Shown here: positions 15,255 to 60,697 of the stretch, piece by piece | Layout: every line of letters starts with the position of its first letter | Numbering within the stretch: position 1 is the stretch's first letter | Origin: Antedon mediterranea | Taxonomy: Eukaryota; Echinodermata; Crinoidea; Comatulida; Antedonidae | Assembly: GCF_964355755.1 (NCBI RefSeq) | Contig: NC_092676.1 | Coordinates: forward strand, 3,206,288 to 3,270,287 | Length of the DNA: 64,000 nt | Direction: 5' to 3' | The notes under the pieces: model-generated | Seen by the model: only the letters and a program-made list of their open reading frames with translations | Database searches by the model: none | What the model was told of the DNA's origin: nothing | Translations under genes and position numbers: made by a program

Positions 15255-15424
15255 AAAGCTCTGTCTACACTATCAAACTAAATAAATGTGATGTGTCCAT
15301 ATGGACATGATGATGTCATATCAATACCATATTTGGGTATATCACTACCATATTTGGGTATATCACTACCATAATGGGCACGTCACACGTTTTTTGTTAC
15401 TAGTTTGATAGTGTAGACATAGAC
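15255..15424. mobile_element. MITE family A, copy 3
   Basis: Left end AAAGCTCTGTCTACACTATC preceded by TA; three copies of the ATATCACTACCAT motif inside; right arm ends GTTTGATAGTGTAGACATAG. Intergenic. Confidence 0.8.
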
Positions 15425-36800: not shown

Positions 36801-39800
36801 TCATTTTTTCTTGTGTACAACAGAGTCATGTTGCATGTACTGTAGAACCAACAGCTAAATATCTCATCTAAAGAGTGCAACATTATCAAGTGTTCCAAAC
36901 CAAACGGTTGAAACACAAGCAGAGGGGGTGATAATCATTACATATAACAGCAAAGAAACTCTATGGTTTGAAGTGTTGGCATGTTAGATTGGACACCCTG
37001 CAGTGATGTCATCTCAAACTTTATTATGATTGGTTAGTAGAATAAACTGACGGCACTTTATCTGTTTACAATGGTATTCAACAATAGAGGTTCTGATGAC
37101 AAATTAGTAGTGAGAATTAGGATCAAATGCAAGTTAGACATTCATGCTGGACCGTAACATTACACTATGCTAATTAATGCTAATTTATGCAAATTTATAC
37201 AAAATACAAACCACTGTTTCTTATTCCCCACACTTTAAAGACAGTCTCTGATTTGTGGCATTACAAAAGAAGTGAAAATGTTAATTACAATCTAAACTAT
37301 TTTAAGTTGCTAAAAAAACGAAATTACAGTATAAGGTGGATAATAACTGCAGGTTCTATAATTCAAAAGATATCGTACTAAACTTTCTTTTTCAACTATA
37401 CCAACAGACCATGCTTATTGATTTTCCAAAAAAATGTATATATTAATGTAACTACACAATATTGAATAGCGCCCTCTGTATTTTTCTACGTATTCTCTCT
37501 GATTTCTGAACGCTAGATTTACTTTCTGTGTTTCTAAAAATGTTTAATTAAGGTTATCCTTGGCTCACCTTTTTCGGGCCGGTTCATTTCGTCACATAAA
37601 TGAAGATCGATTCTTTGGGTACAGAAATGGTAAGAAGTTTCGTGAAGATCATATTGTTCAAAGTACTGTAACTGGGCAAGCTCTTTAGCATTCTTGATGT
37701 TGTGAGGGCGCTTTGCATCAACCTCTTGCTTTACAACTGACGTGGTCTATCAAGAAAAAGAAAGACGTAACATAAAGATCGACAATAAAGACTTTGACAT
37801 AATTGTCTCTGCTCATGAAAGAACACCTTATAAAATTGCTACGGTGGATCATCATCAAACATACAACAAAATACAGCACCCTCACCAATCAAGGTAATGT
37901 CAGACCAGACTGTATTTAATTTCAACACAGAGTATTTGCAAAACATAAAAGTACTTTTTTAAATTATGCAAATATGTAAATAATTATATTTATTTAAATT
38001 AAGCAAATATGTTTATTATTTATTTAAATTATGCAAATTATATTTATTCAAATTATGCAAATATGTAAATTATATCTATTTAAATTATGCAAATATGTGA
38101 ATTATTAAACCTGTTGTTTCTGGTTTGCCATTGCTTTGCTCTGTTGTGTTGATTTTTGAATGACTGGGTTCAGACTTCTGAAATGCATAATGACCGCTTT
38201 GATCTGTGAATCGGTGAGCACCCATAGAATATCGTCCAACAGCACACTTAATTTGGAAGCCAAAATATCACAGTCACTTAACTTCTTTTTCATCGTTATA
38301 TGAATCTGAAAATTTCAAAAAGAAGTATAACCAAAATGTCAACCATACATTCCTTCATGTTGAAAACACATGGCGCAAACTGTACGATAGTTTATTTGCC
38401 ATCCAAACTTTTAAACGAGATAAACTTTTTCATTTTCTGGCAAAATTAGTTGCAAGGTTATCTTACCTGTCCCTGATTGGTGATAATTCTAATTGGTGTG
38501 TTAGGTCTACCTCCTTCATGATCTAACGCATCAATTGTTAAACGAATTGTCGACCACTCAACCATTTTAAACAGTAACGTTTCCCCACGCGTCTGATCTT
38601 TAATCCGCGTCATTCTTAAATCGGTAGGCTGCCAAGTTGAGGGAGAAACACTTTGAACGACAAACCGGGAAATCTATAAAAAGAAAGAAAGATTGTATCA
38701 ACCTGGTTATTATCAGAATTTAGTTTCAAAAATATAAAAACAATTGTATTAACGGTGTTTAATATTATTACTACTACTATAGATTTTACTTTCAAAACAA
38801 ACTGTCAGATCTATAAAAAGAAAAAGATAATTAACAATGTTAATTAATACTAATTTAGTAAATTTCAGTTTCCATTGTATAGTTTCAAAACAAATAATGA
38901 AAGTAAGTGAAATTTTACAGAGAGTAAAAGAATGCAAGTTCTTGCATACATAAGAATACTGTACTTTGTATCTAGTTGAAGTTAAAACTCTTTTACCTGT
39001 ATATCAGCTTTGAATACTGTACTTTATATCTAATAAAGTTAAAACTCTTTTACCTGTATATCAGCTTTGAATACTGTACTTTATATCTAATAAAGTTAAA
39101 ACTCTTTTACCTGTATATCAGCTTTGAATACTGTGTACTTTATATCTAATAAAGTTGAAACTCTTTTACCTGTATATCAGCTTTGAATGCTGTACTTTAT
39201 ATCTAATAAAGTTTAAACTCTTTTACCTGTATATCACCTTTGAATGCTGTACTTTATATCTAATAAAGTCAAAACTCTTTTACCTGTATATCAGCTTTGA
39301 ATGCTGTACTTTATATCTAATAAAGTCAAAACTCTTTTACTTGTATATCAGCTTTGAATGCTGTACTTTATATCTAATAAAGTCAAAACTCTTTTACCTG
39401 TATATCAGCTTTGAATGCTGTACTTTATATCTAATAAAGTCAAAACTCTTTTACCTGTATATCAGCTTTGAATGCTGTACTTTATATCTAATAAAGTCAA
39501 AACTCTTTTACCTGTATATCAGCTTTGAATGTATTTGATACAAACTGGCCATTGATTGCATTGATTGAAACAAAAACGCCATCTACTGTCTTTTCTACGA
39601 ATCCATATTTACTCGTCGCTCTAGAGTAATAAAGAATTTTTAATTTAAAGCATAATGAAGGTATATTCAACAAATTTTAATTGTACGTGACTGGGAAGGA
39701 CAGGTATTTAAAATCTGATCTTAAACAAATATTTGTGTTCACACCATAAGAGCAAAGAATATTGCAATCATTATCATCGTTTTTCTTAGGGCCGTCCAGA

Positions 39801-56250: not shown

Positions 56251-59200
56251 TTATAATAAAAGCAAACTGTACAGGCCTAAACATATGAGCACTGTCCAGG
56301 TAGTAATAAATGATGACGTCATAGCACTGTTGCATTCATGTGGTGAGCTGGTTCCCTCATACGTAATAGTTATCCTAGACTCTAGTCCAGTCGTAATCGG
56401 TGATTTATTGCCAATATAATCGATCATGATGTCCATATCAAGTCGACCTGAAATGTAAAAATAAATGTATACTGGTGGTCACATCACACACGTAACCTTT
56501 TCGTTGATAAAGTTATTTATAATTTCTTTGATATTATCAATGTGATGTATATTCTCTTTCGTCATCAAAACACCTGCTATACATCACCCAATATAAATTA
56601 CAGAATTATTCAAACCTTTTGTTTGGCTCAGCTTAGTTTCTTTAATGACGTCAAAACCACCACCGCCACCTGCTATGTAACTGTTGGTAATTATACTGTA
56701 CACCTCTTCTGTATTTAACTGAACGTAAGCTGGTTCTGTACATCGTGAACAGCGCACTTGCACGTCAGTAATGCGCTCACCGGGACTTCTAGTGACGTCA
56801 TACGCTACACGTATACCTTTTATAGAAATAGACATAAGTATAACGCTTACAGTAACACATTTTTAGCAAGTATATTCTATGTTGTACTTTACTTAATGAG
56901 AATATTTAAAAATGGAAGCGAAATATTACGAAGAACGACCAGAACACCCGATTCTGCAGCTGTCTCTAGTAGGTAAATCTTAACTGACTATTGACAGTCA
57001 ACTGTCTCTCATCTAGATGACTGCCAATGGTCAGTTAACGTCTATCGAGTGACCAGAATATATTGTGACTCGGGAATTGGTTGCAAGCAAGGCAGATGTG
57101 TTGCTACTGGATGTTCCTATTACTTCCTTCAAGCCTTCTCTTCGTGATATTTAACGTAACGTAACTACATTACGGGTGACGTCAGAGTCACCTATTTTAA
57201 GAATTTTACCTGAAACTTGTAGAAAGTCACCACTTCCTGTCTGGTTATTATGTTCAATAACAGAATGTTCCAACGTCTGCAGTAGATGCTTTCCCTTTAA
57301 CTCTATAACATCAATGGTATTGCCGTATGGGAACGTTGAACGTATATTTGCAACTGTGACTTGACCTGATGAATGGAAAATGGAAGTACAAAAAACGACA
57401 ACATCAATCTGATGATAGCCTACTCTAACGATATCGTACTAACCAGGTTTAGTGACAGTTGTAATAACCAAGTTTAATAATCATGACAGACATCGTACTA
57501 TGCAGATTGGAATTTCTATTTACTATTTAATTATAACAGGTTTTAATCAGAATCGTACTACTATAACCAGGTTTAACGATTCTTACCTTTCTAACCCGTT
57601 TTAAGGATACTGTAGTTATCGAACAGTTTAATTCATAGAAAAGTAATTGTATTACTAACCAGGTTTTATGATAGTTATCGCCGTAACCAGGTTTAATACT
57701 ATAGTTATCATACTAACCAGGTTTAACGATTATTATCGTTCTAGCCAGTTTTAATGATAAGTGTAATACTAACCCGGTTTAATTGAGCTCTGAATACTTC
57801 CAGCAGTCGTCATTGCTATGCTAGCGTTACTCCATGTTTCTTGGTTGGGAGTTTTTAAGAAATCTGCTACCATAGCGTCTGTTATTAAGTTTCCATAACT
57901 GCATTCTCTTACTTTACATGCGTCTGCTTCAAGCGTTACAAAACTTTGACCAATGACGTCTTCGCTGACTTCAGTTACCTTCTTCGCCCAGATACTAACT
58001 TCTGACGCAATTGTGGGATCTGTGATGAAACATGCGTCAATGTAAACAAGTACTTTCCTTATGTTTCTATGCCACAAAATGAGTCAAATTTGGTACGACC
58101 TTCATTCATGTGGAGTTTGTTGCTTTTTATGATATAATAATTGTATACTGAACGCGCGATTGATATTCTTTCTTTTTAAATACTAATAGCTAAAAATAAA
58201 ACAACAACTTCTGCTTCACAAAACGTTTATTAAGAACTTACCAGGTTGAACAATGTGATCTAGCAAAATAGGATTGCCCGTGTACGCTTTTACGTCACCT
58301 TCTTCTGAAAACGTCACATCCAGTCGACCAAGATATTTTCCGTAAGCGTACGCAGAGACGACTAGAACCGTCCTGGTGGTATCGTAATCAGGGCGCACGG
58401 TTATTGGATAGACATCAAATGGTGTTTCGGAAGATGGTGGTGGTGAACCTGTAAAAGAATGACTGACAACCAGAAGATCCTGTGGATGGGTTTGATAGGA
58501 ATGGTTACTTCAAAGCTCATCTTGGTATTATGATATGGGGCGCCATACGCAGCAAAGATGCTATGCTAAAATACAAGTGTAACATTAGAATTGAATAAAA
58601 TAACAATCAATTATACTGTATGTTTGAAGAAATTAGACGTGTGTTTAAAATTTACACATGTATTTAAGCATGATACTTTTGTTGCGTTTGGCGCCCCGTA
58701 GCAGATTGACCCGGCCGTTTATTAACCTGTGTAGAGAAACGTATTTGTATGTCCACCGATGACGACATCAAGTCCTGTAACTCGATTAGCTATATCCAGA
58801 TCTACTTCAATTCCCGAGTGCCCCACTGCCACTATTATGGTGACGTTACTGGCCAGCAGACGATTAACTTCACTTTGAACTGCGTCAACTTCATCCTCAA
58901 AAGTTAGTTTTCCTTAAAATTTTAGTGATAGTATATATTATTATTATTAGAGTTTCTGATATTTTGTTTCATTTTCTGCAAGGTTTATGTTTGGCAATAG
59001 GCCTACAAATAAAGAATGTTTACTTTTTAAGTTTGCAAAATACGAAAAAAAAACTTTGTTCAATCTATCTCGAACATTCTGCTCGAACAAATTAAAGACT
59101 TATGGACAAACAGAAAGTATAATCATTAAAGTATTGTTGTTTCTAAACTTCGTTTAAAAACAATAGTATGTATTATTATCATAACCTTTCATCATGATAA

Positions 59201-60697
59201 GTAATGCAGTTCTATTTATAGGCAGAGTATTTCCCGCCAAAATAATGTAGGCCTACAAGAATTTCTTCAGTATAAGTCTATGGCGAGCCTTCGAAGCCTT
59301 TAAAAATGAAGTGTTTTGGAACAATACATTATGCAAATTACTCATAGCAATAAAATATGTACACATAATCAATATATTACCTGTTTTACTGAAGTCGGGT
59401 GTGGTAGACAAGGTGTATCCAATTATCCCCATTTTAGTGCCTTCCACCAACAGAATAACACTTTTGCTGATCTTCTGTTGAAATTTGACTTCGTCATCGG
59501 CGTTTATGTTCGAACTGAGAATAGGGAATGTGACGTTTTCAAGGAATGGTAACAATCCGCTGATACCATCATCAAACTCATGATTACCCAAACTCTACGA
59601 AATGAATAACAACAGGTTTAATGATAAATTATCGGCATAACCAGATTAACAACAGTTATCGTACTAACTAGGAAGGGTAAAAAACCGCTGATACCATCAT
59701 CAAACTCATGATTACCAAAACTCTACGAAATGAATAACAACAGGTTTAACGATAAGTTATCGGCATAACCAGATTAACAACAGTTATCGTACTAACTAGG
59801 AAGGGTAACAAACCGTTGTTACCATCATCAAACTCATGATTACCCAAACTCTACGAAACGAATAACAACAGGTTTAAAGATAAGTTATTGGCATAACGAG
59901 ATTAACAACTAACTAACTAACAATTAACTACTTAGTTTAACAATACATTTAGACAGTTCTAGTTTGCTAAAAACAGAATTAGGCACCGTCCTGTGACATT
60001 CAAAATGTGACATTGTTTAGGATAAGGGGGATGGTAGGACACACAAAGGCTGGATTGCGAAGACTATAATGTTGATATTTAGTGTTTAAATAGACTAAAC
60101 AACTAAAAGCTATAAACAGGTCTACTTCTTTGATAGCTATATTGTATACAATAGCGTTTATATGTTTACTCAAAACAGTGCTGCACTCGGGACAGCCCGG
60201 ATACACAGTACGACACGAAAGATACGCATACAAATGAAACACGCGCAAACAGATTAACCCACCTTACCAAGATGATGAGACGCATAATATGGTTGAACAA
60301 TTTCTTGATTTAAAAAAAAATGCTTTAGTTTCCATGCATTATGAAACATTAAACATACCATGGCGTCGTACTGTAACATGTTCATGAAATGTGACGTAGC
60401 CAATCCTCTATATACGTAATACCACATAGTTCCTTGAAACTCGTCTCCAGCGTCTAGCAGTAACACGTTAGTTTCATTCTCACGTCGTATCTTTGAAACC
60501 ACAGTGGCGCGCCGAGCAATGCCGCCGAAACACATATCGTCTGCTGCCATTTCAGAAGTACACGTTGAACCAGTCAAACTTGCTTGTTCAATTCTTGTGT
60601 GAACGTCGTTCGTATGCAGGAACGTGATATTAACGGCAGTAGCTAACAAATTACAGGTTAAAAGTAAAACAATAACACAATATTGTGGTATATCCAT
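56251..60697 (-). CDS. NT5E: Ecto-5'-nucleotidase (CD73-like), 8 exons, altered substrate pocket
   Basis: Family members are GPI-anchored cell-surface enzymes that hydrolyse AMP to adenosine. Exons: 60359-60697, 59381-59594, 58727-58912, 58242-58448, 57774-58019, 57210-57365, 56616-56816, 56251-56447; joined 1746 nt, 581 residues (human CD73: 574). N-terminal signal peptide (hydrophobic residues 7-20), then metallophosphatase motifs HTNDVH, LLLDAGD, LGNHEFD, VGHSG and VIGGHTNTF: all metal ligands are present. The C-terminal domain keeps VRECSYGN, but the usual NGGGIR reads TTAGSIQ, the aromatic of LPFGGTF is Tyr (FPYGNT), and ANGGDGF reads AGGGGGF. The last 28 residues are hydrophobic after ECNSA, as for a GPI signal. 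I chose the ATG at 60697 because it directly precedes a normal signal peptide; an in-frame ATG at 60751 would add 18 residues. Catalysis or specificity may be changed (inference). Confidence 0.9.
57438..57780. repeat. Degenerate ~28-bp minisatellite built on the NT5E exon 5 donor
   Basis: About ten imperfect units containing ACTAACCAGGTTTAACGAT on the plus strand, which is AAACCTG|GTTAGT on the minus strand. The authentic exon 5 end (AAACCGG|GTTAGT, exon end at 57774) is the last unit. Donor-like copies with an intact CTGGTTAGT lie near 57438, 57654 and 57712; others have drifted. Confidence 0.75.
59541..59912. repeat. Three ~129-bp tandem copies of the NT5E exon 2 start and its acceptor
   Basis: Units begin near 59541, 59673 and 59801. 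On the minus strand each has a TCGTAG acceptor followed by exon-2-like sequence (GGTAATCATGAGTTTGATGA); the first contains the authentic exon 2 start at 59594. The second copy reads GTTTTGG where exon 2 has GTTTGGG. The intron part (AACAACAGGTTTAACGATAA, GTTATCGTACTAACTAGG) resembles the 57438-57780 repeat. Confidence 0.8.

Follow-up and report, generated by a model that had tools for sequence, protein, structure and literature searches.

Tandem repeats that carry copies of a splice site have been described in amphioxus, where the globin genes BflGb6 and BflGb9 contain so-called mirages at 5' and 3' exon boundaries that differ in length between alleles (PMC3087553). The name was given for the amphioxus Adh3 gene (Canestro et al., 2002, via PMC3087553), and, according to the accessible part of the globin report, the Adh3 data and globin RT-PCR suggest that regular splicing is undisturbed (PMC3087553). 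In human ABCA7, a polymorphic VNTR in intron 18 has a 25-bp unit, present in 12 to about 427 copies, that opens with the donor of exon 18; the array has been associated with skipping of exon 19 and with Alzheimer risk. Retention of one unit is given there as 2 +/- 1% (the latter of two values) and is unchanged by array length; exon 19 skipping rises with array length and longer arrays show lower expression, as stated in the available text (PMC5954066). Human duplicated genes contain variable internal tandem repeats at exon-intron boundaries, in the part of that report at hand (PMC2812944). The MIR137 VNTR (PMC6692358) was considered as a further parallel and set aside, as its novel donors lie in pre-miRNA sequence according to the portion of that article available. 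By title, we found no genome-wide survey of splice-site arrays in the literature, subscription papers being mostly outside our reach.

The locus described here lies in the crinoid Antedon mediterranea, in a stretch of 64,000 nucleotides (contig NC_092676.1, positions 3,206,288 to 3,270,287) that was analysed as a whole and is called the window below; coordinates are those of the window. On its minus strand, a BLTP3-family exon of 109 nt (39512..39620), preceded by ATTACTCTAG at its putative acceptor, encodes a segment closing with ...ADIQ and ends in ...ATACAG^GTAAAAG, where the caret, here and below, marks the splice junction. Across this junction, on the same strand, runs a 57-bp minisatellite (38954..39531; TRF: period 57, 10.1 copies, 96% matches), which takes in 20 bases at the exon's end and 558 bases of the 838-nt intron. 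The array is a tandem repeat whose unit spans the exon-intron boundary, the boundary being fixed by homology. Each unit consists of 20 exon-derived bases (CATTCAAAGCTGATATACAG, with the three distal units beginning with T instead) and 37 intron-derived bases. The donor heptamer GTAAAAG is unbroken in all ten units, with first bases at 39511, 39454, 39397, 39340, 39283, 39226, 39169, 39110, 39053 and 38996; it is preceded as CAG^GT in nine units and as CAA^GT in unit 4, and nine copies match the donor consensus at 7 of 9 positions and one at 6 of 9. A first-pass annotation of this DNA had proposed ten GTAAAAG donors on a 57-bp unit, which TRF and the donor search bore out. Its regular 57-bp spacing from 39512 applies to all steps save one of 59, with donor 1 starting at 39511, and its figure of 18 exonic bases per unit has to be corrected to 20. 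Just past the distal end of the array lies an inverted repeat with 7-base arms (ATGCAAG-AA-CTTGCAT, 38932-38947).

Assignment of the gene to the BLTP3 family of lipid-transfer proteins, as the same annotation had it for BLTP3, is confirmed by the Pfam profile PF24917 (BLTP3A_B). Of its 13 genomic matches, 12 fall in the window; 11 exceeded the cut-off, all of these in the window, and the array's own exon is the twelfth window match, just under it when searched alone (1.3e-4, 19.8 bits; cut-off 24 bits). The next exon on the minus strand (38461..38673, 3' end approximate) has the acceptor TTCTTTCTTTTTATAG^ATTTCCCGG and the first exon base 38673. When donor 1 (CAG^GTAAAAG, 39505..39511, minus strand) was joined to this acceptor, residues 3-106 aligned to profile positions 112-215 with an E value of 5.8e-26, 104 residues filling 104 positions. 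Because the joined exons match the BLTP3 profile at equal lengths, we regard donor 1 as the protein-conserving site of this exon, and the conservation of the protein suggests that splicing takes place there. Use of any of donor copies 2-10 (38990..39454, minus strand) adds VKEF*, the first stop met in frame for all nine. Both earlier statements on this point, namely that choice of the first site conserves the protein and that any other donor adds an in-frame stop, are thus correct. In the same intron, another strong tract that looks like an acceptor, TTATCTTTTTCTTTTTATAG^AT, lies at 38811-38830 and resembles the one before 38673. Elsewhere in the gene, an A/T-rich array of 30-54 bp, which holds no donor copies, starts within about 5 bases of the 38111 end of the exon at 37982-38111.

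In its organization the BLTP3 array is real and belongs to the already known mirage-type repeats. Like the amphioxus mirages, as described in the accessible part of the source (PMC3087553), it is a minisatellite-like tandem duplication of an exon-intron boundary with AG/GT in many units, and both it and the other arrays of this genome resemble them in lying at 5' or 3' edges with units in the range of roughly 10-160 bp. The differences are that other genes are affected, that up to 22 donors occur, that prevalence was estimated from a small survey and that the arrays are known here from genome sequence alone. With ABCA7 it shares a donor GT in every unit, and in both genes splicing at the second donor means one additional unit and a premature stop; in contrast to BLTP3, the ABCA7 unit is described, in the text available, as starting at the donor, without an exonic part (PMC5954066). 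The human repeats are likewise minisatellites at exon-intron boundaries that affect gene structure, but the accessible portion of that report treats differences, in segmental duplications, between paralogues that show alternative splicing or have new introns, whereas BLTP3 is one locus with its coding sequence preserved (PMC2812944). Intron gain by tandem duplication also multiplies splice signals, as set out in the part of PMC2891723 at hand, but no new intron has been shown at BLTP3.

A search of the 354-Mb assembly with a 28-base core of the unit, allowing up to 3 mismatches, found ten places, all inside the BLTP3 array, and no match on the other strand or for the reversed control. Introners are copies inserted into many genes; like the BLTP3 array they multiply splice signals by duplication, but the BLTP3 unit is restricted to one locus. 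Confinement of the core to the array rules out a dispersed repeat or introner. Neither a second haplotype nor a paralogue was found, the 851-bp region matching a single place in a search that skips very common words.

The units of the array are nearly identical. Units 1, 2, 3 and 5 agree across the 54 compared bases, unit 4 has one difference, units 6-9 have two or three each, with intermediate variants in units 6 and 7, and unit 10 is the most diverged, its 15 ungapped mismatches being inflated by a 1-base insertion. Of the two ends of the cluster, which in mirages are said to escape homogenisation, the distal one is the most divergent and the exon-side one is identical to its neighbouring units. 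The gradient of variants that had been noted earlier from the exon side outwards is real and would agree with an array expanding from that side, although it is no proof of that direction. Among the unit variants we saw no sign of selection to keep or to kill the extra donors, the changes being few and the power low. The array is young and its retained donors do not reveal selection. Ordered private variants and the single 59-base spacing also speak against the copy number being an assembly artefact, as does the occurrence of the same pattern in other arrays of the genome; the 11 contigs examined span 22-41 Mb each. One amphioxus mirage was misassembled in a draft, as reported in the accessible part of PMC3087553, and copy number was judged here from the assembly. 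On balance we give an artefact very little credence.

The BLTP3 array is most probably a mirage, i.e., a minisatellite whose growth extended over an exon-intron junction and whose extra donors are tolerated while exon definition keeps the exon-side site in use. The array starts in the exon with CATTC and ends with TATTC; the latter lies 58 bases from where unit 10, with its one additional base, begins. The short ATTC match is a likely birth point. The end of the exon and the start of the intron would have been duplicated in tandem, probably between two short ATTC matches about one unit apart. Amplification and homogenisation of the duplicated unit would have followed, the exon side being affected last.

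Two further arrays lie in the window, on the minus strand of a 5'-nucleotidase (NT5E-like) gene. A 128-bp array (59542..59909; TRF and sequence) contains three acceptor copies of the form TTTCGTAG^AGTTT(G/T)GGTAATCATGAG, at 59850, at 59722 and at the authentic acceptor 59594. The exon that follows (59594-59382) matches 5'-nucleotidases in PDB (best 1.4e-11); Pfam gave no match for the ORF holding it. In another intron of this gene, degenerate repeats of about 28-30 bp with the motif AAACC(T/G)GGTTA (57440..57782; TRF and motif search) begin at the donor CCGG^GTTAGT (first base 57773) and fill most of the intron. Seven of the eight window matches to this motif fall in that interval, against 1.83 expected per window, and a single copy of the 16-mer TTAAACCTGGTTAGTA exists in the genome. 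Motifs resembling AAACCTG(T/G)TT are common to both array-bearing introns. An intron full of degenerate donor-derived repeats (57.4-57.8 kb) is what would be expected of an aged array, and such arrays might be a stage of intron gain, with an internal unit becoming a new exon or the array a new intron. A model of this kind was put forward for the amphioxus globins, as given in the accessible text of PMC3087553. At BLTP3, however, the flanking exons give a continuous profile match without any unit, and no unit acting as an exon has been shown, which makes such a stage hardly probable for this array.

The recurrence of such arrays at other genes was surveyed in two samples. For the kinase sample, 50 of 140 kinase-domain matches, short partial matches picked by hand, gave 40 loci (93,140 bp); another 30 kinase loci, mostly consisting of one long open frame, were kept out of the edge counts. 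For the helicase sample, 66 of 92 matches were taken downward from the list and gave 60 loci (43,568 bp); not used were four matches whose open frames are very long, two further matches and the greater part of the list's tail. High-identity arrays copying a splice site were found at 2 of 232 listed match edges (0.9%, 95% interval 0.1-3.1%), in a non-random sample whose match edges only approximate exon edges. The window was excluded from this rate because it had been chosen for its array. The kinase sample contributed a PAK-like gene (PAK1, E 1.4e-39) with nine donors on an 80-bp unit (98%), and the helicase sample a CHD1L-like gene (CHD1L, E 2.5e-33) with at least 14 acceptors on a 90-bp unit, in an array that continues beyond the fetched piece. 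A DDX54-like gene has three acceptors on a 39-bp unit at the exon following a listed one (DDX54, E 3.6e-24 for the listed exon). A 29-bp repeat of 2.3 copies at an exon edge (L106) is degenerate and was excluded from the count, and the arrays at L081 and L095 lie beside an acceptor without including it.

A pattern search added a gene related to DHX8/PRP22, with 22 donors on a 37-bp unit (L073:625-851 and L136:1-660; C1:17776224-17777059). Twenty of the 21 spacings are 37 bp and one is 60. Some variants of this array repeat 111 bp apart, hinting at a higher-order repeat of three units. The exon bearing the array aligns to DHX8 residues 733-773 (3.4e-19; best DHX8 entry 9.8e-20) and the next one, which begins 86 nt after the last donor, to residues 775-834 (7.6e-31), one codon being split at the junction. 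Since the alignment is continuous across the junction, the first donor is the protein-conserving one here as well. The pattern used in this search, AGGTAAGT three times in tandem, had 286 matches genome-wide against 1609 for the reversed control, so that no enrichment can be claimed. The matches listed cover one contig, C1, where they fall into four long arrays. In one of these four, the DHX8-like array, the 5' flank is an exon donor; for the other three, no sense-strand exon was seen in the 5' flank, with translations judged by eye.

Arrays were not in excess over exon edges in either sample when compared with random placement, in samples that are small and with some arrays cut by fetched ends. 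The ten arrays of the kinase sample (4.9% of the sequence) would straddle 2.69 edges if placed at random, and one was seen; for the three arrays of the helicase sample (1.5%) the expectation was 1.63, and one was seen at a listed edge and one more at an unlisted edge. A simple view is that of a genome rich in minisatellites, where a junction-crossing array persists provided that its coding copy remains intact.

These results bear on the proposal, also made in the first-pass annotation, that the BLTP3 array is a splice-noise or nonsense-mediated-decay module, in which array length would set the fraction of transcripts using donors 2-10 and hence the level of BLTP3 protein. The identical stop after all nine later donors and the donor strength retained in all copies would fit regulation of this kind, but a chance stop would be likely in any AT-rich intron, and in a young array of near-identical units the kept donors show no selection. 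Arrays also occur at other genes, where their sequences differ, and the edges they cover do not exceed the random expectation. In ABCA7, array length accompanies changes in splicing and expression, but retention of one unit is constant with length, both according to the available text (PMC5954066). A regulatory module is accordingly unsupported and we consider it improbable. The alternative offered alongside it, namely slippage that is neutral and tolerated since donor 1 prevails, is the best fit, and the BLTP3 array may be close to neutral. Arrays of this kind are not neutral in every case: in ABCA7, greater length is accompanied by increased skipping of the following exon and by reduced expression.

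With regard to the choice of splice site, five other well-preserved arrays agree with BLTP3. In each, homologous coding sequence joins the copy that touches the exon body, with the next exon lying outside the comparison in the PAK-like gene. This copy is the first for donors (PAK-like, DHX8-like) and the last for acceptors (CHD1L-like, DDX54-like, 5'-nucleotidase), so that a single shortest-exon rule covers both. The donor exons of the BLTP3, DHX8-like and PAK-like genes measure 109, 124 and 197 nt, and with the last donor they would measure 624, 924 and 837 nt, respectively; from this difference in length we infer exon definition as the chooser. In BLTP3, donor 1 would remain in use through cross-exon recognition, in which the 109-nt exon is defined jointly with its own acceptor. 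The exon-side donor yields the shortest exon, and donors 2-10 would be tolerated competitors. Their occasional use would place a stop after four codons (VKEF*), and decay of such transcripts through the nonsense-mediated pathway is expected.

Eperon, in 1993, reportedly found that, when a 5' site is duplicated in a test pre-mRNA, the copy on the intron side tends to be preferred, a tendency that runs opposite to the donor choice proposed for BLTP3. If it applied here, downstream copies would be used regularly, donor copy 10 foremost, most RNA would carry the stop and BLTP3 protein would come from a minority of transcripts. The last donor would leave a workable intron of 323 nt in BLTP3 and of 86 nt in the DHX8-like gene. 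The conserved protein, however, requires donor 1 in BLTP3 and the first donor in the DHX8-like gene, and amphioxus RT-PCR (PMC3087553) and the ABCA7 data (PMC5954066), in the parts of both reports available, favour the exon-side site. Regular downstream use is thus very unlikely, and retention of the exon-side site by exon definition remains the reading that we prefer.

The added interest of the BLTP3 array lies in recurrence, at roughly one exon edge in a hundred by our small survey and, separately from that survey, as a run of 22 donors in a spliceosomal helicase gene. That arrays of up to 22 near-identical sites, donors and acceptors, occupy about 1% of exon edges, possibly thousands, probably outside cephalochordates, is a tentative generalization that we would not yet bet on. 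Were it true, a strict shortest-exon rule of the splicing machinery would override identical competitors, and mirages, far from being an amphioxus oddity, would widely and renewably supply alternative exons and new introns. The array frequency, if it holds, would establish them as a general way in which splice variants arise and introns turn over, and would call for caution in gene prediction. Engineered duplications have served to study how the spliceosome chooses among identical sites. The natural series of 9-22 donors and of three to at least 14 acceptors in conserved genes offer an in vivo test by RNA-seq, in which exon definition predicts the exon-side copy for donors and acceptors alike and intron-side competition predicts the opposite.

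The sampled parts of the genome are rich in young minisatellites. Long, near-identical ones were seen near kinase exons at L045, L052, L056 and L070 (54 x 12, 75 x 6, 64 x 9 and 41 x 19, 26 x 24). A 21-bp unit close to CATATCACTACCATATTTGGG forms arrays of 2-4 copies in the window at 15318, 21342, 22239, 23408, 35559, 49853, 51087 and 63114, and recurs in nine of the 100 survey loci (L055, L060, L061, L066, L069, L071, L080, L105 and L123).
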